Part shown: positions 32,696 through 60,731 of the stretch, piece after piece
Position numbering within the stretch: position 1 is the first letter of the stretch
Layout of the letters: the number at the start of each line of letters is the position of its first letter
DNA from: Streptomyces rubradiris
GTDB lineage: Bacteria > Actinomycetota > Actinomycetes > Streptomycetales > Streptomycetaceae
Direction: 5' to 3'
NCBI RefSeq assembly: GCF_016860525.1
Contig: NZ_BNEA01000015.1
Span: forward strand, 620,001-684,000
Length of the DNA stretch: 64,000 nucleotides
The notes under the pieces: generated by a model
Seen by the model: only the letters and a program-made list of their open reading frames with translations
Told to the model about the DNA's origin: nothing
Databases searched by the model: none
Translations under genes and position numbers: made by a program

Positions 32696-34033
32696 TCACG
32701 CGGGCAGGGCGAAGTCGGCCACGTACAGCGGTGAGGGCGTCGTACCGGCGGACTTCTCCTGGTACATGAACGACAGGACGCCGTCCGCCGCGATCCGGGT
32801 CTCGTCCACCACCACCTCGCCGAACGCGTTCAGCCCGGCGCCGTCGAACAGCAGCGCCCAGTCGGTGTACCCACGGGCCGCCGAGGCGGCGGCGATCCGG
32901 CCGCGGGGCAGCACGGCGTAGGCGTTGTCGTGGCGGTCCAGGACCAGCCTGGTGCGCTGGCTGGAGCGCAGCGGGACGGGGATCTCGGTCTTCAGCCAGG
33001 TGCCGGCGGCGGTCTTGCGCAGATGGTGGGCGCGGGCGTGGGCGGTGCGGGCCGCGGCGTAGCCGCCGGGCCGCGGGCCGAGGCGGACGGGGAGGTGGCT
33101 GACGACTCCGTGCGGCAGGCCGGCCGAGTCGGTGCACTGACTCTCCTGGTTCATCAGGCAGTGGTCCGGGCCCAGCGGGTCGACGACCAGGCCGGGGTCG
33201 GTGACGCGGACCCGGTCCGGCCCGCCGGTGGTGCCCACCACGGTGCCCGCGTCGTCGCGCCAGGTCCGGCCGCGGTCGTCGGACGTGACGTAGCCGGTGT
33301 CGTGGTTGGTCAGTCCGCCGCCGTCGGCGAGGACGGCCGGGTCCCGCTCCCGCCAGGTGAACAGGGCGTGCAGCCGGCCGCGCCGGTCGTAGTCGAGGCC
33401 GTGCAGGTACATGCTGCGGGCGGTGCTGGAGCCGTGCGCGCTGGTGTACGTGCCGGTGGCGCCGGACCACTCCCCCAGCGCGGTCCACCGGGAACCGTCG
33501 TACTCCGCGAGGGCGTTGCGGCCGTTCCCGGAGACGCCGGCCCGGTAGGACAGCTGGAGCCGGCCCTCGGGGGTGGTGAGGAACTGCGGGTAGGTGAACC
33601 GCTCGGTGAGCGGCAGGCCGTCCAGGGTGGTCCGTACGGCACCGAAGGCGGACGGGCCCCAGGCGGTGCCGGAGGGATCGTCAAGGAGTCCGGCGACGGA
33701 CTTGACGTAGTGGAAGCCGTCGCTGTGGGAGTCGAGGTTCAGGTGCAGGCGGCCGTCCACCGGGGAGACGCCCATGCAGATGACGTTGTGGGAGTCGTCG
33801 GCCTTCAGCCGGTGGGGCAGGGTGACGGCCGTCCAGGCGGCGGTGCCGAGCGCGCGGCGGGCCACGACCGCCTCGCGGCTCGCCGTGTACCAGACGGCGT
33901 ACTGGTGGCCGCCGTGGGTCAGCAGGCCGTGTTTCTGGAAGGAGTTGGTGTTGACCAGGCCGTCGTAGGAGACGAAGTACAGGGCGCGGGCGTCCAGTCG
34001 GGTGCGGGCCGGTCCGGTCAGCGAGGGTCTCAT
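32696..34033 (-). CDS. BNR_4-type beta-propeller protein in rhamnose operon
   Basis: A 445-residue protein of the BNR-repeat (BNR_4) family. Conserved stretches include QKHGLLTHGGHQYAVWYT, DDSHNVICMGVSPVDGRLHL, SHSDGFHYVKS, TYPQFLTTPEGRLQLSYRAG and YLHGLDYDRRGRLHALFTWRE. Known relatives are seven-bladed propellers acting on rhamnose-containing polymers (ulvan lyases, rhamnosidases or lyases cleaving Rha-GlcA linkages). No signal peptide is present, so it would act in the cytoplasm on imported oligosaccharides. GGGAG precedes ATG 34033 by 8 bases. It follows rhaM by 18 bp in the same operon. A rhamnosidase/rhamnose-releasing lyase role is inferred. Confidence 0.82.
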   Translation of the reverse strand: MRPSLTGPARTRLDARALYFVSYDGLVNTNSFQKHGLLTHGGHQYAVWYTASREAVVARRALGTAAWTAVTLPHRLKADDSHNVICMGVSPVDGRLHLNLDSHSDGFHYVKSVAGLLDDPSGTAWGPSAFGAVRTTLDGLPLTERFTYPQFLTTPEGRLQLSYRAGVSGNGRNALAEYDGSRWTALGEWSGATGTYTSAHGSSTARSMYLHGLDYDRRGRLHALFTWRERDPAVLADGGGLTNHDTGYVTSDDRGRTWRDDAGTVVGTTGGPDRVRVTDPGLVVDPLGPDHCLMNQESQCTDSAGLPHGVVSHLPVRLGPRPGGYAAARTAHARAHHLRKTAAGTWLKTEIPVPLRSSQRTRLVLDRHDNAYAVLPRGRIAAASAARGYTDWALLFDGAGLNAFGEVVVDETRIAADGVLSFMYQEKSAGTTPSPLYVADFALPA

Positions 34034-34051: not shown

Positions 34052-34372
34052 TCAGGCGAGGTGGAACACTTCGGTGAGCGGTCGCATGGCCTCGTCGGGC
34101 CGGGTGCCGTCCAGGGATTCGAAGAAGGGCGCCATCTCCCGCTGCCAGCGGGCGTTGACCTCGGTGGCGGCCATGCCGGCCTGGGCGGCGGCGAAGTCCT
34201 CGGTCTCCAGGTAGCCGACGAGCAGGCCGTCCTCGCGCAGGAACAGCGAGTAGTTGTGCCAGCCGGCCGCCTTCAGGGCGTCGAGCATCTCCGGCCAGAC
34301 GGCCGCGTGCCGCGCCCGGTACTCCGCGAGCCGGTCCGTCCTGACCTTCAGCAGGAAGCACACGCGCTGCAT
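34052..34372 (-). CDS. rhaM: L-rhamnose mutarotase
   Basis: A 106-residue protein of the RhaM family, which interconverts alpha- and beta-L-rhamnopyranose to feed the isomerase. The sequence is nearly textbook: MQRVCFLLKVRTDRLAEYRARHAAVWPEMLDALKAAGWHNYSLFL, with the conserved His in RHAAVWPEM and the Trp-His-Asn-Tyr motif, plus GYLETEDF. The length matches the 104-residue E. coli protein. GGAG lies 7 bases upstream of the ATG. It sits 17 bp after the binding-protein gene. Confidence 0.95.
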   Translation of the reverse strand: MQRVCFLLKVRTDRLAEYRARHAAVWPEMLDALKAAGWHNYSLFLREDGLLVGYLETEDFAAAQAGMAATEVNARWQREMAPFFESLDGTRPDEAMRPLTEVFHLA

Positions 34373-34389
34373 GAACAGTCTCCGTCCTC

Positions 34390-35469
34390 TCAGAAGTGGT
34401 ACCGGTCGATGGTGCGGGCGTCGAACACGGTCGGCTCGCCGAGGTCGATCACGCCGTTCTCGCCGAGGGTGTACGTCGTCCCGCCGGACCGGAAGGTCTC
34501 GCCCCGCCTGCCGCTGATCTGCCCGGAGGCCAGCGCGACGGCGGTGCGGGCCGCGAGCGCGCCGAGCCTGTCCGGGTCCCACAGCGCGAAGGCCTCGACG
34601 GTGCCGTTCTTGACGTACCGGCGCAGGTCGTTCGGGGTGCCGAGGCCGGTCAGCCGGACCTTGCCCCGGTACTTGGACCCGGACAGGTACCGGGCGGCGG
34701 CCTTGATGCCGACGGTGGTCGGGGAGATGATCCCCTTCAGGTCCGGGTGTTCCTGGAGCAGGCCCTGGGTCTGCTGGAAGGACTGCTGGGCGTCGTCGTT
34801 GCCGTAGGCGATGCCGACGAGCCGGATGTCCTTGTACTTCGGGTCCTTCAGCTCGTCCTTCATATGGCCGATCCAGGTGTTCTGGTTGGTCGCGGTCTGC
34901 GCGGCGGACAGGATCGCGATCTCGCCCTTGTAGCCGATCTGCCGGGCGAGCAGCCGCACTTGGACACGGCCCAGGTCCTCCGCACCGGCCGGCGAGACGA
35001 AGGCGTTGCGGCAGCCGGGGGTGGTGTCGGAGTCGTAGGTGACGACCTTGATGCCGCCCCGCATGGCCTGCCTCAGCGCGGTGCACAGGGCGCCGGGGTC
35101 CTGCGCGGACACGGCGATGGCGTCCACCCGCTGCTGGGTGAGGGTGTTGACGTAACTCACCTGCCCGGCGGTGTCGGTGGCGCTGCCCGGACCGACCTCC
35201 TTGTAGTGCGAGCCGAGTTCGGCGAGGGCCCGCTCGCCGCCCTTGCCGGCGGTGGTGAAGTAGGGGTTGTTGACCTGCTTGGGCAGGAATCCGACGGTCA
35301 GGTCCTTCTTGGTCGCGGCGCCCGGGTCGGCCGGGCCGGCGGGCGCGGGGGCGGCGTAGTCCGCCTTGACGTCGTCCTTGGTGGTGCCGCCGCAGGCGGT
35401 GAGCGCGAGGGCGAGCCCGGTGCCGGCGGCGAGCAGCACGCGGGCGCGGCGCGGGGAGGGGTGCGGCAT
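34390..35469 (-). CDS. rhaS: Rhamnose ABC transporter substrate-binding lipoprotein
   Basis: A 359-residue exported binding protein. The signal peptide ends in the lipobox LTAC at residues 23-26, giving a lipoprotein. The mature part is a type-1 periplasmic-binding fold: LTVGFLPKQVNNPYFTTAGKGGERAL opens it, with VDAIAVSAQDPGALCTALRQA and KVVTYDSDTTPGCRNAFVSPA. It resembles RhaS proteins of the rhamnose uptake systems found in rhizobia and actinomycetes. It lies between permease and mutarotase genes of the same operon. ATG 35469 follows AAGGA. Confidence 0.92.
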   Translation of the reverse strand: MPHPSPRRARVLLAAGTGLALALTACGGTTKDDVKADYAAPAPAGPADPGAATKKDLTVGFLPKQVNNPYFTTAGKGGERALAELGSHYKEVGPGSATDTAGQVSYVNTLTQQRVDAIAVSAQDPGALCTALRQAMRGGIKVVTYDSDTTPGCRNAFVSPAGAEDLGRVQVRLLARQIGYKGEIAILSAAQTATNQNTWIGHMKDELKDPKYKDIRLVGIAYGNDDAQQSFQQTQGLLQEHPDLKGIISPTTVGIKAAARYLSGSKYRGKVRLTGLGTPNDLRRYVKNGTVEAFALWDPDRLGALAARTAVALASGQISGRRGETFRSGGTTYTLGENGVIDLGEPTVFDARTIDRYHF

Positions 35470-35500: not shown

Positions 35501-36466
35501 CTAGGCCGGCCGTCGTGCCACGGCGAACCGCCGGGCCAGCCGGGGCCCGAGCACGGACACCACGAGCAGCACACCGGTCACCACGGTCTGCGACTGGGCC
35601 GAGACGTCGAGCAGGCTCATCACGTTCTGCAGCGCGCCCAGCAGGAAGACCCCGGCGAGGGCGCCGCCGATCGTGCCCCGGCCCCCGTCGAAGTCGATTC
35701 CGCCGAGCAACACGGCGGCCACGACGGACAGTTCGAGCCCGGTGGCGTTGTCGTAGCGGGCGCTGGCGTAGTGCAGCGCCCAGAACACCCCGGTGAGCGC
35801 GGACATGAACCCGGTGGCGACGAACAGCACGAGCTTGGTCCGCCTGACCCGGATGCCGGCGAACCGCGCCGCCTCCTCCCCGGCCCCGATCGCGTACAGC
35901 GAGCGGCCGAACGGGGTGGCGTGCAGCACCACCGCGGCGAGGGCGAGCAGCACCAGGAAGAGGGGGAAGGCGCGCGGCAGGAAGGAGTCGCCGATGCGGC
36001 CGGCCGCGAAGTCCAGGTACTGCGGCGGGAAGTCGGTCACCGTGTCGGAGCCCAGCACGATCTGCGCGATCCCCCGGTACGCGGCGAGCGTGCCGATGGT
36101 GACCGCGAGCGAGGGCAGCCCGAGCCGGGTCACCAGCAGGCCGTTGACGAGCCCGCACGCCACGCCCAGCAGCAGGCACAGCGGGATAATCGTCTGGATG
36201 GCCAGGCCCTCGTTCCACAGCCGGCCCAGCACCGCGCCGGACAGGCCCGCGGTGGACGCCACGGACAGGTCGACGTCACCGGAGACCACCAGGAGCGTCA
36301 TCGGCAGGGCGATCAGCGCGATCGGGAGCGTGTTGCCGAGCAGGAACGACAGGTTGAGCGCGTTGCCGAAGCCGTCGACGCAGCCGAACGACAGCAGCGA
36401 CAGCACGATCAGCAGCGCGCCGACGACCGTGTCCCAGCGGACCGCGCGGGTGAGCGGCTCAGGCAC
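35501..36466 (-). CDS. Rhamnose ABC transporter permease (second)
   Basis: A 321-residue membrane protein with about 8-10 helices of the RbsC/branched-chain family. The diagnostic loop LLVVSGDVDLSVASTAGLSGAVLGRLW corresponds to the (D/G)xDLSVG motif, and AAVLLGGIDFDGGRGTIGGALAGVFLLGALQN is the conserved C-terminal loop. GTG 36466 is preceded by AAGGAGG at the correct distance. The first bases GTGCCTGA overlap the stop of the short repeat-coded ORF upstream exactly as that ORF overlaps the first permease gene. Partner of the first permease, ATPase and binding protein for L-rhamnose uptake. Confidence 0.92.
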   Translation of the reverse strand: MPEPLTRAVRWDTVVGALLIVLSLLSFGCVDGFGNALNLSFLLGNTLPIALIALPMTLLVVSGDVDLSVASTAGLSGAVLGRLWNEGLAIQTIIPLCLLLGVACGLVNGLLVTRLGLPSLAVTIGTLAAYRGIAQIVLGSDTVTDFPPQYLDFAAGRIGDSFLPRAFPLFLVLLALAAVVLHATPFGRSLYAIGAGEEAARFAGIRVRRTKLVLFVATGFMSALTGVFWALHYASARYDNATGLELSVVAAVLLGGIDFDGGRGTIGGALAGVFLLGALQNVMSLLDVSAQSQTVVTGVLLVVSVLGPRLARRFAVARRPA

Positions 36467-36656
36467 GGGTGCCCTCCTTCGCGGCTTCGGACATCCGCGT
36501 TCCCCTGCGCGGCTCAGGCACCGGTGTTCCCTTCCGTGACCCCCGCACCGGCGTTCCCGTTCGTGACCCCCGCACCGGCGTTCCCGTTCGTGACCCACGC
36601 ACCGGCGTCGCCCTCCGCGACTCACGCACCGGCGTTCCCGTTCGTGACTCAGGCAC
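36459..36656 (-). CDS. 65-codon repeat-coded linker ORF between permease genes
   Basis: A small ORF made almost wholly of 9-residue repeats (TPVRGSRTG, several copies), very basic and low-complexity. Its GTG start lies in GTGCCTGA, where TGA is the first permease stop; its own stop lies in the GTGCCTGA that starts the second permease. Both starts have good ribosome-binding sites (AAGGGG and AAGGAGG). The underlying DNA is a tandem array of 27-bp repeats, so the frame stays open by virtue of the repeat length. Whether the peptide is functional or translation merely bridges the two genes is unknown. Confidence 0.45.
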   Translation of the reverse strand: MPESRTGTPVRESRRATPVRGSRTGTPVRGSRTGTPVRGSRKGTPVPEPRRGTRMSEAAKEGTRA

Positions 36657-36657
36657 C
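36496..36657. repeat. Six tandem copies of a 27-bp repeat
   Basis: Contiguous copies at 36496-36522, 36523-36549, 36550-36576, 36577-36603, 36604-36630 and 36631-36657. The most regular form contains GGCGTTCCCGTTCGTGAC and ends CGCACC; copies 3 and 4 differ by one base. Outer copies are more diverged. The unit length is a multiple of three. The array fills the gap between the two rhamnose permease genes and is absent elsewhere in the window. No spacers, so it is not a CRISPR. Confidence 0.95.
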
Positions 36658-37719
36658 GGCGTTCCCCTTCGCCATGGCGGGCCTCCTCGGGCCCGGACTC
36701 TTCTTCAGGGCGGTGGCCACCCGCAGCGCGACGACCCGGTCCACGGCGATGGCGAGCAGCAGGAGGGCGCCGTCGATGGCGAGCACCCACACGGAGCTGA
36801 CGCCGAGCGCGGGCAGCACGCTGCCCACGGAGGTGAGCAGCAGGGCGCCGAGCGCGGCGCCGTACACGCTGCCGGACCCGCCGGTGAAGGCGACGCCGCC
36901 GACCACCACCGCGCTGACCACGGTGAGTTCGTAGCCGCTGCCGGTGCCGGAGTCGACGTTGCCGAACCGCGCCAGGTACAGCGCTCCGGCCAGTCCGGCG
37001 AGGGCGCCGCAGCACGTGTAGGCGGCCAGTATCCGGCGGCGCACGGGGATGCCGGCCAGCCGGGCCGCCTCGGGGCTGGAGCCGAGCGCGTACAGTTCCC
37101 GGCCGCCGGGGTAGTGCTTGAGGTAGTACGCCGTGGCCACCAGCACCGCCAGCGCGATCAGCGCGAGCCAGGGCACCGCGAGGATGCCGCCGGAGCCGAA
37201 GTCGGCGAAGCCTGCGGGCAGATCGGCGGCGGTGATCTGGCGGGCGCCCACCCAGAGGGAGTCGGCGCCCCGCACGACGTAGAGGGTGCCGAGGGTGACG
37301 ACGAGGGCCGGAACCCGGCCGAGGCTGACGAGCAGGCCGTTGAGCAGCCCGCAGCAGACGCCGAGCAGGACCGCGACGAGCACCGCGACGACCGCGTTCC
37401 CGCCCCCGTGCAGCCAGGTGCCGGCGGCGAAGGCGCTGATCCCGAGCGTGGAGCCGACGGACAGGTCGACGTTGCGGGTGAGGACGACCAGCGACTGTCC
37501 GGTGGCGACCAGCACCAGGACGGCCGCGTTCAGCAGCAGGTCCTTCACGCCCTGCTCGGACAGGAACCGGCTGTTGCCCGCCTGGGTGACCGCGATCATC
37601 ACCAGGAAGACGGCGAGGACGGCGAGTTCGCGCATCCTGAGGACGCGCTCCAGGAGCCGGGCGCCGCCGGAGGGGGGTGTCCCGGCGGCGGAGGGCTCGT
37701 CCGTGGTGGTCACCGTCAT
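36649..37719 (-). CDS. Rhamnose ABC transporter permease (first)
   Basis: A 356-residue inner-membrane permease of the RbsC type. After a 25-residue hydrophilic N-terminus there are about 9-10 membrane helices. The substrate-channel signature LVVLTRNVDLSVGSTLGISAFAAGTW is clear, and the C-terminal loop SAVVVGGVAFTGGSGSVYGAALGALLLTSVGSVL is conserved. ATG 37719 overlaps the ATPase stop by four bases. The last codons (AKGNAGA) run into the first copy of the 27-bp repeat, and the stop overlaps the start of the linker ORF. Confidence 0.92.
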   Translation of the reverse strand: MTVTTTDEPSAAGTPPSGGARLLERVLRMRELAVLAVFLVMIAVTQAGNSRFLSEQGVKDLLLNAAVLVLVATGQSLVVLTRNVDLSVGSTLGISAFAAGTWLHGGGNAVVAVLVAVLLGVCCGLLNGLLVSLGRVPALVVTLGTLYVVRGADSLWVGARQITAADLPAGFADFGSGGILAVPWLALIALAVLVATAYYLKHYPGGRELYALGSSPEAARLAGIPVRRRILAAYTCCGALAGLAGALYLARFGNVDSGTGSGYELTVVSAVVVGGVAFTGGSGSVYGAALGALLLTSVGSVLPALGVSSVWVLAIDGALLLLAIAVDRVVALRVATALKKSPGPRRPAMAKGNAGA

Positions 37720-39233
37720 GCGGCGGCCCTCCCGGTGGCGGCGGCCAGCACGGTCTCCTCGGTGGCGGCGGCGCGCGGGAGGTCGGCGGTGATCCGGCCC
37801 TCGTGCATCACCAGGACCCGGTCGGCCATGCCGAGGATCTCCGGCAGATCGGAGGAGATCATCAGGACGGCCACCCCGTCGGCGGCCAGCTCCCCCAGCA
37901 GGCGGTGCACTTCGGCCTTGGTGCCGACGTCGATGCCCCGGGTCGGCTCGTCCACGACGAGTACCTTCGGGGCGGTGGCGAGCCACTTGGCGAGGACGAC
38001 CTTCTGCTGGTTGCCGCCGGACAGGGTGGAGACGGCGTCCGCGATCCGGGCGTACTTCACCTGGAGCCGCACCGCCCAGTCCAGGGACCGGCGGCGTTCG
38101 GCGCGCCGGTGCACCAGGCCGGCGCGGGCGGTCGTGCGCAGGCCGGTCAGGCCGATGTTCCGTTCGACGGACAGGTTCATCACCAGGCCCTGGGCCCGCC
38201 GGTCCTCGGGGACGAGGGCCAGTCCGGCGGCCATCGCGGCCGACGGCGCGCCGTTGGGAAGCGGCCGGCCGGCGACCTCCACCTCGCCCGCGTCCCGGCG
38301 GTCGACGCCGAACACGGCCCGGGCGACCTCGGTGCGGCCGGCCCCCACCAGCCCGGCGAGGCCGACGATCTCGCCGCGCCGCACGTCGAAGGAGACGTCG
38401 GTGAAGACGCCCTCGCGGGTCAGCCGGCGCACGCTGAGGGCGACGTCGCCGGCGCGGACGTGCCGCTTCGGGTACAGCTCGGCCAGGTCGCGGCCGACCA
38501 TGCGGCGGATCAGGTCGTCCTCGGTCATTCCCGCGAGGGGCTCGGTGGCGATCCGGGTGCCGTCGCGCAGGGTGGTCACCTTCTGGCAGATTTCGAGGAT
38601 CTCCTGAAGCCGGTGGGAGACGAACAGCACGGCGGCGCCCTGCTCGCGCAGGGTGCGCACGACGCCGAAGAGCCGGGCGGCCTCGCTGCCGGTGAGGGCG
38701 GCGGTCGGCTCGTCCATGATCAGGACCCGGGCGTCGAAGGAGAGCGCTTTGGCGATCTCCACCAGCTGCTGGTCGGCGATGGACAGTCCGCGGGCGGGCC
38801 GCCCGGGGTCGAGACCGACGCCGAGCCGCCGCATCAGCGCGGCCGTCGCCGCGCGGGTGGCCTTGTGGTCGATCCGGCCGAGGGCACGGGTGGGCCCGCG
38901 GCCCATGAAGATGTTCTCGGCGACCGACAGGTCCGGGAACAGGGTGGGTTCCTGGTGGATGACGGCGATGCCGACGGCACGGGCGTCGCCGGGGCCGTGG
39001 AGGACGACGGGTCCGCCGTCGAGCAGCACCTGCCCGGTGTCCGGGCGGTGCACCCCGGCGAGGATCTTGATCAGCGTCGACTTGCCCGCGCCGTTCTCGC
39101 CGGCCAGGGCGTGCGCCTCACCGGGCAGCAGCTCCAGGGAGACGTCCCGCAGGGCGCGTACGGCGCCGAAGGACTTGGAGACGCCCTTCAGCGCGAGCAC
39201 CGGGAGAGGTCCCGGGCCGGGCGGATGGGTCAT
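37716..39233 (-). CDS. rhaT: Rhamnose ABC transporter ATP-binding protein
   Basis: A 505-residue double-ATPase of the RbsA/monosaccharide type. The first domain has Walker A GENGAGKST, a degenerate signature LSIADQQLVEIAKAL and Walker B VLIMDEPTAAL. The second has GLVGAGRTE (degenerate Walker A), LSGGNQQKVVLAKWLA and VLVVDEPTRGIDVG. This asymmetry is normal for sugar importers. ATG 39233 follows GAGGAG closely and leads the minus-strand operon ATPase-permease-permease-binding protein-rhaM-BNR-LacI. The symbol follows usage for rhamnose uptake systems. Confidence 0.93.
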   Translation of the reverse strand: MTHPPGPGPLPVLALKGVSKSFGAVRALRDVSLELLPGEAHALAGENGAGKSTLIKILAGVHRPDTGQVLLDGGPVVLHGPGDARAVGIAVIHQEPTLFPDLSVAENIFMGRGPTRALGRIDHKATRAATAALMRRLGVGLDPGRPARGLSIADQQLVEIAKALSFDARVLIMDEPTAALTGSEAARLFGVVRTLREQGAAVLFVSHRLQEILEICQKVTTLRDGTRIATEPLAGMTEDDLIRRMVGRDLAELYPKRHVRAGDVALSVRRLTREGVFTDVSFDVRRGEIVGLAGLVGAGRTEVARAVFGVDRRDAGEVEVAGRPLPNGAPSAAMAAGLALVPEDRRAQGLVMNLSVERNIGLTGLRTTARAGLVHRRAERRRSLDWAVRLQVKYARIADAVSTLSGGNQQKVVLAKWLATAPKVLVVDEPTRGIDVGTKAEVHRLLGELAADGVAVLMISSDLPEILGMADRVLVMHEGRITADLPRAAATEETVLAAATGRAAA

Positions 39234-39507: not shown

Positions 39508-40668
39508 GTGACCGACCTCGCCGCGGTGAAGGCCGCGCTCAAGACCCAGGCCGTCGAGACGCCGTCGTGGGCGTACGGGAACTCGGGCACCCGGTTCAAG
39601 GTGTTCGCGCAGGCCGGGGTGCCGCGCTCGCCCTGGGAGAAGATCCAGGACGCGGCGCGGGTGCACGCGTTCACCGGGGTCGCGCCGTCGGTCGCCCTGC
39701 ACATCCCCTGGGACACCGTGGAGGACTACGCCGCGCTCGCGAAGTACGCCGAGGACCAGGGGGTGCGGCTGGGCACGATCAACTCCAACACCTTCCAGGA
39801 CGACGCCTACAAGCTGGGCAGCGTCTGCCACCCGGACGCGGCGGTACGGCGCAAGGCCGTGGACCACCTGCTGCGCTGCGTCGACATCATGGACGCCACC
39901 GGCTCCCGGGACCTGAAGCTGTGGTTCGCGGACGGCACCAACTACCCCGGGCAGGACGATGTGCGCGCCCGCCAGGACCGGCTGGCCGAGGGGCTGGCCG
40001 AGGTGTACGCGCGGCTCGGTGAGGAACAGCGGATGCTGCTGGAGTACAAGCTCTTCGAGCCCGCGTTCTACACCACGGACGTGCCCGACTGGGGGACCGC
40101 ATACGCCCACTGCCTGGGACTCGGCGACAAGGCGCGGGTGGTGGTGGACACCGGGCACCACGCGCCGGGCACCAACATCGAGTTCATCGTCGCCACACTG
40201 CTGCGGGAGGACAAGCTCGGCGGGTTCGACTTCAACTCGCGGTTCTACGCCGACGACGACCTGATGGCGGGGGCGGCCGATCCCTTCCAGCTGTTCCGGA
40301 TCATGTACGAGGTGGTGCGCGGCGGGGGGTTCACCTCCGAGGTCGCGTTCATGCTCGACCAGTGCCACAACATCGAGCCGAAGATCCCGGCGATCATCCG
40401 CTCCGTGATGAACGTTCAGGAGGCCACGGCGAAGGCGCTGTTGGTCGACAGGGACGCGTTGGCGAAGGCGCAGGCCGCGGGGGACGTGCTGGGGGCCAAC
40501 GCCGTGCTGATGGACGCGTACGACACGGATGTGCGGCCGTTGCTCCGTGCGGTCCGGGAGGAGATGGGGGTGGACCCCGATCCGATGGCCGCGTATGCCC
40601 GGTCCGGGTGGGCCGAGAAGATCGTCGCCGAGCGGGTCGGTGGGGAGCAGGCGGGCTGGGGGGCGTGA
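39508..40668 (+). CDS. rhaI: L-rhamnose isomerase
   Basis: A 386-residue metal-dependent isomerase converting L-rhamnose to L-rhamnulose, of the RhaI type (Pseudomonas stutzeri-like) rather than E. coli RhaA. Conserved segments include SGTRFKVFAQAGVPRSPWEKIQDAARVHAFTGVAPSVALHIPWD, KLWFADGTNYPGQ, LLEYKLFEPAFYTTDVPDWG (metal-binding Glu), VVVDTGHHAPGTNIEFIVA and GFDFNSRFYADDDLMAGAADPFQLF. GTG 39508 follows AGGAG. First gene of the plus-strand rhamnose operon, behind a sigma-70 promoter with a LacI site. Confidence 0.96.
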   Translation: MTDLAAVKAALKTQAVETPSWAYGNSGTRFKVFAQAGVPRSPWEKIQDAARVHAFTGVAPSVALHIPWDTVEDYAALAKYAEDQGVRLGTINSNTFQDDAYKLGSVCHPDAAVRRKAVDHLLRCVDIMDATGSRDLKLWFADGTNYPGQDDVRARQDRLAEGLAEVYARLGEEQRMLLEYKLFEPAFYTTDVPDWGTAYAHCLGLGDKARVVVDTGHHAPGTNIEFIVATLLREDKLGGFDFNSRFYADDDLMAGAADPFQLFRIMYEVVRGGGFTSEVAFMLDQCHNIEPKIPAIIRSVMNVQEATAKALLVDRDALAKAQAAGDVLGANAVLMDAYDTDVRPLLRAVREEMGVDPDPMAAYARSGWAEKIVAERVGGEQAGWGA

Positions 40669-55273: not shown

Positions 55274-55831
55274 ATGTCCGCACACCGTGCCCCACGCCAG
55301 CACCGTACGCACCGGCTGCGCGCCGCCCTGGGGGTCTCCGCCGTAGGCGCCGCCCTGACCGTCGCCGGCGCCATGACCGCGCAGGCGGCCCAGGACAGCG
55401 GGCCCGCCAAGGCCGACCGCTCGTCCGCGGCCCCCACCCAGGCCCACCAGGCCACCGCCCCGGCCCCGGCCCCGGCGGACGACCAGGTATCCACCCCGGC
55501 TCCGGTACCGCCGGCCCACACGGCGACCCCGTCCCCGGCCCCAGCCCCGCCGACCCACACCGCCACCCCGGCCCCGGCCCCGGTCCCACCGACCCACACC
55601 GCCACCCCGGCCCCGGTGCCGTCGCCGGTCCGCACGGGAACCCCCGCCCCGGTACCGCCGACGGGTACGGCGACCCCCGCGCCGGCACCGGCCACGGCCG
55701 TCCCCTCCCCCGTCCCCGCTCCGGCCACGGCGACCCCGGCCCCGGCCCCGGAGGCGGACCGCCCGGTGCCCGTCCCGCACCACCACCGCCACGCCGCACC
55801 GGCGCCGGTTCCGGTTCCGCGGCAGCACTGA
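55274..55831 (+). CDS. Pro/Ala-rich secreted protein
   Basis: A 185-residue exported protein. A Sec signal peptide (basic start, then LGVSAVGAALTVAGAMTAQAAQ) ends at about residue 38. The mature chain is almost all PAP/PTHTATPAPAPVP repeats, low in charge, ending in the His-rich VPHHHRHAAPAPVPVPRQH. Such sequences are extended, possibly O-glycosylated, cell-wall or extracellular spacers. No enzymatic domain. It lies directly before an ECF sigma gene and shares Pro/Thr-rich composition with the tail of the anti-sigma-like protein in the same group. Confidence 0.75.
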   Translation: MSAHRAPRQHRTHRLRAALGVSAVGAALTVAGAMTAQAAQDSGPAKADRSSAAPTQAHQATAPAPAPADDQVSTPAPVPPAHTATPSPAPAPPTHTATPAPAPVPPTHTATPAPVPSPVRTGTPAPVPPTGTATPAPAPATAVPSPVPAPATATPAPAPEADRPVPVPHHHRHAAPAPVPVPRQH

Positions 55832-60423: not shown

Positions 60424-60731
60424 GCCCGCCGGGCCGACGCCCGCGACCCGACGCCCGCGACCCGACGCCCGCGACCCGACGCCGAGCCCGCGGGGCCGAT
60501 GTCCGCGACCCGCCCGCGCCACCCGCGTCTGTCGTGCGAAGCCCGTCGACCTCCCGCATATTGGGGAAGTGACTCTCCCGGGGACGAGGCGACGCCTCGG
60601 AGCCGTACGAGCCACGAATGCCCGGCCGGCCGTACACCTGCCGGCCGTACTCCGGTCGGCGGCGCCCTCACCGGCAAACGCGCCCGGCCGCATGCGAGGA
60701 GCGCGCCCGGCGGCGCACAAAGGAGGCTGTG
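60424..60731. other. 308-bp intergenic region with 14-bp tandem repeats
   Basis: CGACGCCCGCGACC is repeated three times head to tail at 60435-60476, just after the MFS stop, followed by partial copies. The rest contains the promoter of the P450 gene, including a TTGACG-free but AT-richer segment near 60560. No gene was found. Confidence 0.6.

Follow-up and report, generated by a model that had tools for sequence, protein, structure and literature searches.

A tandem-repeat ORF between two permease genes of a Streptomyces rhamnose transporter operon as a candidate ribosome relay

The rhamnose operon and its repeat array

The window (the whole stretch of 64,000 nucleotides that was analysed) comes, judging by its relatives, from a Streptomyces genome, and its minus strand carries a rhamnose ABC transporter operon composed of an ATPase, permease 1, permease 2, a RhaS-type binding protein and a rhamnose mutarotase. 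The sugar ABC transporter ATPase (37716..39215, minus strand; NCBIfam and Pfam matches) lies upstream of permease 1 (36649..37719, minus strand), a rhamnose-type ABC transporter protein of 356 aa with the BPD_transp_2 domain (PF02653) and a TGA stop at 36651..36649. Permease 2 (35501..36466, minus strand; 321 aa) also matches BPD_transp_2, and the operon continues with the rhamnose substrate-binding protein RhaS (34393..35469, minus strand; TIGR02637 above cut-off) and the L-rhamnose mutarotase RhaM (34055..34390, minus strand; PF05336 above and TIGR02625 below cut-off). The gene for L-rhamnose isomerase (39508..40665, plus strand; TIGR02635 above cut-off) is divergent from the operon, and an ORF with a BNR_4 domain (PF15892) is found downstream of the operon, on the operon's strand, at 32696-34033.

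The two permeases are joined through a small ORF. At junction A (36649..36656, minus strand) the stop of permease 1 overlaps the GTG of this ORF by 8 nt, and at junction B (36459..36466, minus strand) the stop of the ORF overlaps the GTG of permease 2, again by 8 nt; both overlaps read GTGCCTGA. The bridging ORF (36459..36656, minus strand), recognised from the ORF call and these two overlaps, is the candidate relay. A preliminary description of this DNA had proposed a GTG mini-ORF of 65 codons sharing 8 nt with each permease. The presence of GTGCCTGA at 36656..36649 and 36466..36459 bears this out, and the length of the ORF also stands; its upper coordinate is 36656 and not 36657.

Tandem-repeat detection and unit alignment define an array of 190 nt (36467..36656, minus strand), formed by six units of 27 nt (36630-36656, 36603-36629, 36576-36602, 36549-36575, 36522-36548 and 36495-36521, minus strand) and a unit of 28 nt (36467..36494, minus strand), the most diverged of all. 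Each 27-nt unit begins with GTG and the 28-nt unit with ATG, and the distance from the first to the last GTG, 190 nt, equals 1 modulo 3. The six contiguous 27-bp repeats described previously do exist, but the additional unit means that the total is not a multiple of three. In order, the 27-nt units translate as VPESRTGTP, VRESRRATP, VRGSRTGTP, VRGSRTGTP, VRGSRKGTP and VPEPRRGTR, and their mean nucleotide identity is 0.80, so that the earlier peptide formula, (TPVRGSRTG)n, is only approximate. The 28-nt unit translates as MSEAAKEGT and, together with the GTGCCTGA that follows, reads MSEAAKEGTRA and a stop, which resembles the start of permease 2 joined to the tail of permease 1. Its gapped identity to the other six units is 0.50-0.61, as against 0.67-0.96 among these six, and two adjacent copies of the start site are identical across the 26 nt compared.

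The array obtained the highest score in the window with Tandem Repeats Finder (240, versus 183 for the next array, in 47 rows). Its unit consensus, which was drawn from the same data, gave 6 matches where 0.30 were expected, a number reached in none of 100 shuffles. Other tandem arrays of the window are located at 55494-55616 (39 bp x 3.2) and at 60434-60483 (14 bp x 3.6, perfect).

The permease ends that flank the array are intact. Permease 1 ends in MAKGNAGA, and a protein of Streptomyces sp. CSDS2 that is 95% identical to it ends in MAKGNSGA. Permease 2 continues after its start codon with PEPLTRAVRW, and two related proteins begin with MPEPLTRAVRW (P0001, 97% identical) and MPEPLTRAIRW (P0003, 95%); the same start residue is shared by the three nearest public relatives of permease 2, all of 321 aa and 94-97% identical to it. 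Both neighbours being complete genes, the array reads as something added between them.

The permease junction in relatives

An in-frame start codon stands exactly 8 nt before the end of the permease-1 stop in 247 of 249 distinct regions (219 ATG, 27 GTG and 1 TTG), a count that establishes that a start exists there rather than that it is used, as the script takes the in-frame start nearest to -8. The window and one other region, L069, are the only exceptions, which leaves 247 of 248 regions when the window's own is set aside. These 249 regions, the window's included, result from collapsing 319 of the locus rows L001-L328 by identical 250-nt junction sequence. Nine rows had been left out beforehand: two repeats of the window's own locus (L001, L036), one place elsewhere in its genome (L002) and six unrelated loci (L037, L041, L042, L044, L046, L047). 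The relatives were chosen by best similarity; Streptomyces predominates, another genus of the family contributes six genomes, and distant relatives are under-represented in the sample.

The ancestral state supported by this comparison is the direct 8-nt overlap of the two permeases, of the NTGNNTGA type, in agreement with the overlapped gene pair postulated in the preliminary description. Among the 247 regions, the distance between the permease-1 stop and a conserved point in permease 2 varies from 43 to 199 nt. That the overlap stays in place while this distance varies speaks for a constraint on the overlap itself.

With the array as query, 12 of 392 genomes of the genus (one genome per species), the window's own among them, gave a match at E <= 1e-5. 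Five of these matches are a single copy of 40-45 nt at the permease junction (G016, G020, G111, G255 and G326) and six correspond to unrelated loci; the surrounding sequence was inspected at five of these six, the other, L046, lying at a contig end. The array itself was found in none of the other genomes sampled, neither among the 392 of the genus nor in the other 248 distinct regions. For the strains nearest to the window's (Streptomyces sp. CSDS2, SudanB182_2057 and S. achromogenes) the comparison covered proteins, and in CSDS2 neither the permease-1 tail nor the permease-2 head would reveal whether an array is present.

The second exception, L069, belongs to Streptomyces olivochromogenes A53 (NZ_JADDRL010000006.1), where a 10-bp array (L069:4442-4500; unit GAAGCCCTGA, about 4.5 copies) occupies the same permease junction. 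Here the 8-nt overlap is gone and 47 nt separate the permease-1 stop from the start of permease 2; this spacer is devoid of ATG, GTG and TTG and contains a Shine-Dalgarno-like stretch before permease 2, which is retained, with a match that spans residues 1-313. A relative whose array breaks the frame without loss of the second gene had been named beforehand as evidence against the relay, and this strain goes part of the way, its 10-bp array having broken the overlap.

Several relatives carry other repeats in the vicinity. Tandem repeats of 15 bp are found in permease-1 tails, upstream of the overlap (L010, L061, L101 and L218), and protein P0122 has a repeated permease-1 tail, MAKEKTGAKETTGA. 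A unit of 18 bp is repeated about 5.6 times in the permease-2 head of L280 (G523, from another genus of the family), just past an intact 8-nt overlap, and a 21-bp tandem repeat lies near the overlap in L278. All these 15-, 18- and 21-bp repeats lie no further than about 100 nt from the overlap, and permease 1 has 24-bp pairs further up. Duplication is thus not rare around the overlap, which suggests that the gene ends on both sides of it grow in this manner.

Origin of the array and translation across it

An alignment of the copies on their start codons extends from about -13 to +14 and includes the Shine-Dalgarno region, the start, the stop and the first codons. On this comparison the array is a tandem duplication of the local junction, and nothing points to a mobile element. 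The earlier proposal that a tandem duplication split the gene pair holds as far as the split is concerned; the segment duplicated is the junction, at the start of permease 2. Had all units measured 27 nt, the result would have been an in-frame N-terminal extension of permease 2. The small ORF opens in the ancestral frame of permease 2 and closes on permease 2 only owing to the 28-nt length of the last unit.

We infer the following order of events from divergence only. An early duplication of 28 nt would have created an ORF of 11 codons (MSEAAKEGTRA) running from the old permease-2 start to the old permease-1 stop, and later in-frame duplications of 27 nt would have extended it to 65 codons, leaving both 8-nt overlaps unbroken. 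Ribosomes that finish permease 1 would then restart on the small ORF, finish there and restart on permease 2, and the insertion would be tolerated by virtue of this relay; permease 2 is probably also able to initiate in part from its own strong Shine-Dalgarno sequence. The complete reading (duplication of the junction in 28-nt and then 27-nt steps, ribosome relay and by-product peptide) is given a probability of roughly 0.55.

The spacing of the genes bears directly on the relay. In a termination-reinitiation pair the downstream product depends on translation of the upstream gene. Overlaps of 8 nt are an enriched coupling layout (PMC12548453), and the range associated with coupled pairs, -8 to +10 nt (PMC10666635), includes each of the window's junctions by way of the small ORF and, directly, the junctions of 247 of the 248 other distinct regions; the distance from permease 1 to permease 2, 182 nt, falls outside it. 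In six pairs tested in E. coli and Haloferax, gaps of approximately 20 nt nearly abolished coupling (PMC10666635), and coupling over 182 nt would therefore be unlikely, on that evidence, without the ORF. The balance leans somewhat towards translation of the small ORF as a relay. The idea, also put forward in the preliminary description, that copy number tunes the coupling of the permeases finds no support, no second genome with the array having been found.

The main competitor, which we regard as possible though the odds are against it, is that replication slippage duplicated the junction, coupling was lost and permease 2 became independent, the array being a neutral spacer whose ORF owes its openness to chance and is translated little or not at all. 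The Shine-Dalgarno sequence of permease 2 (AAGGAGG, 36473..36479, minus strand, 6 nt before the GTG) has a predicted duplex energy of -13.0 kcal/mol, and the pairing is weaker in 160 of 167 relatives (all these ranks refer to an earlier, smaller sample), which suggests that permease 2 may have no need of a relay. The junction of L069, where the genes are separated, permease 2 persists and GAAGGGGG precedes its start, also fits an independent start. Against this, the start site at the first GTG, that of the small ORF, is laid out as in the ancestor, and its predicted duplex of -8.7 kcal/mol exceeds in strength that of 120 of the 167 relatives, so that some initiation there would be hard to avoid; furthermore, both 8-nt overlaps are intact. 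Against the relay, in turn, three of the inner copies of the start have a predicted pairing of -5.7 kcal/mol, weaker than in every one of the 167.

The coding statistics of the small ORF are those of non-coding DNA, as a neutral spacer would have them. Third-position GC is 0.70, whereas the two permeases have 0.96 and 0.98, and the codon score is 0.30 versus a minimum of 0.66 among 2000 sampled 65-codon windows of the operon genes. The protein has no database match at E <= 0.01 (among 755 candidates, required to share exact 5-residue words) and searches for NCBIfam and Pfam families gave nothing at E <= 0.001. A conserved small protein gene was rejected on these two grounds, the lack of homologues and a codon usage that is not gene-like; most probably the peptide as such is a by-product.

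The openness of the frame likewise agrees with chance. Simulated arrays of six mutated 27-nt units remained open in 0.36 (flat model) or 0.43 (transition-biased model) of cases after 20 substitutions and in 0.20 or 0.25, respectively, after 40; in random 189-mers the frame was open in 0.31. With a chance openness of 20-43% in the simulations, and a codon usage unlike that of the operon genes, selection on the open frame cannot be claimed, and the suggestion that selection had maintained it is not upheld. Within the six 27-nt units there are 1, 5 and 5 variable columns at codon positions 1, 2 and 3, too few changes to be informative, and the mean amino-acid identity between units in the three frames, 0.68, 0.53 and 0.67, rests on equally few.

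It is very improbable that the 28-nt unit is a sequencing or assembly error for one of 27 nt, in which case permease 2 would have a repetitive N-terminal extension of 63 residues beginning at 36656. The other six units measure 27 nt, and removing one base would indeed put the ORF in frame with permease 2, but the extra base lies outside any long homopolymer (GAAGCC, compared with GAGCC in the preceding unit), and the unit is diverged throughout rather than at a single base. Moreover, in the three closest public permease-2 proteins, from strains compared by protein sequence, the first residue corresponds to the final start codon and the extension is absent.

Mycobacterial interspersed repetitive units (MIRUs) were reportedly described by Supply and colleagues in 1997. 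The ORFs of MIRUs overlap the upstream stop as well, and at some loci the number of MIRU copies differs between strains. According to the source used here, MIRUs come to lie at the start of a gene, with an internal ORF coupled to that gene, and their insertion is perhaps of little effect (PMC12548453); these ORFs constitute the proposed precedent for a ribosome relay (PMC12548453). The window array resembles them in that its repeats lie at a gene start and its internal ORF ends in GTGCCTGA over the start of permease 2 (PMC12548453). It differs in unit size (27 and 28 nt, against 40-100 bp; PMC2734929), in the spacing of the coupled start (-8 nt at both ends, against -4 nt; PMC12548453) and in dispersal: MIRUs are scattered over 41 places in H37Rv and are seemingly mobile, as these accounts have it, while the window array is a single locus made of copies of its local junction, its own genome having yielded no second array of these units. 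By the published descriptions consulted, the array would thus work in the way proposed for MIRUs and yet is not a member of the group.

An insertion from a mobile, dispersed family of this type in Streptomyces is hardly to be expected. The layout of the small ORF, coupled to the next gene like those of MIRUs (PMC12548453), would suit such a family, as would a 27-bp array at an unrelated Streptomyces locus (L037, from G186; 95 nt at 77% identity) and the six matches that a 19-nt core finds outside the array in the window's own genome at <=2 mismatches, compared with none for a reversed control. The units are nevertheless copies of the local junction, and elsewhere in that genome there are only one partial match of 36 nt and one of 24 nt at 3 mismatches. 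A search with the L037 array matched, apart from G186 and the window's own genome, 10 genomes (E 4e-9 to 4e-7), and at the one place examined in each a 27-bp period was present in 2 of the 10. The genes on either side of the L037 array (L037:1490-1628, G186:C15) apparently run in the same direction, and the downstream one has an SBP_bac_3 domain; the core of the array is nearly identical to that of the window (GAACGGGAANGCCGGTGCG), by convergence of GC-rich repeats or through something shared.

Direct repeats can serve as binding sites, and this general consideration would favour a regulatory element at the RNA or DNA level (structured RNA, terminator, promoter or operator array), the least probable explanation of all: the array RNA folds worse than 199 of 200 shuffles (z +2.25), a scan of 36300-36800 restricted to sigma-70-type promoters detected no promoter-like site, which led to the rejection of a structured RNA and of a promoter of that type, and the one terminator-like site in the same interval is on the other strand.

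Known junctions and the meaning of the array

Apart from MIRUs, three kinds of junction are comparable to that of the window. The first are the termination-reinitiation pairs of the NTGNNTGA type (-8 nt), a description that suits the ancestral junction and both present ones, which, like those pairs, concern subunits of one transporter (PMC12548453, PMC10666635). Unlike an ordinary pair of this class, as those sources portray it, the window junction has been multiplied and an extra ORF stands between the genes.

In rnc-fpg1 of the M. tuberculosis complex repeats also enlarge the gap between co-directional genes (PMC2734929): it measures 1-54 bp in other mycobacteria and 279-358 bp, with repeats, in the complex (PMC2734929). 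The length of the repeats there varies between isolates, longer arrays being accompanied by a higher mRNA level (PMC2734929). This system differs in having a measured effect on mRNA, and no relay ORF figures in the portion of that account used here (PMC2734929).

The third comparison is with short upstream ORFs and bicistronic designs, in which translation of a short ORF brings the ribosome to the next start (PMC12548453). As presented in that source these are leaders or engineered elements, while the window ORF follows another gene within an operon, where a duplication would have given rise to it. No case of a repeat relay ORF in Streptomyces was recognised in the titles and abstract openings of the open-licence literature.

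The mechanism, tandem duplication, is ordinary; the case is unusual and instructive. It amounts to a natural experiment on translational coupling, in which an 8-nt overlap nearly universal among the junctions sampled has been pushed 182 nt apart and an ORF re-creates the overlap at both ends, and it shows a route by which a MIRU-like relay could originate through local duplication, with no mobile element involved. A broader proposal, decidedly speculative, is that stop/start junctions of the NTGNNTGA type are self-healing: a single duplication of 1 modulo 3 would restore both overlaps, and subsequent ones of 3n would keep the ORF closed. If this were true, such a junction could grow into a relay of variable length, and the losses of ribosomes during the passage would set the ratio of the two permeases.
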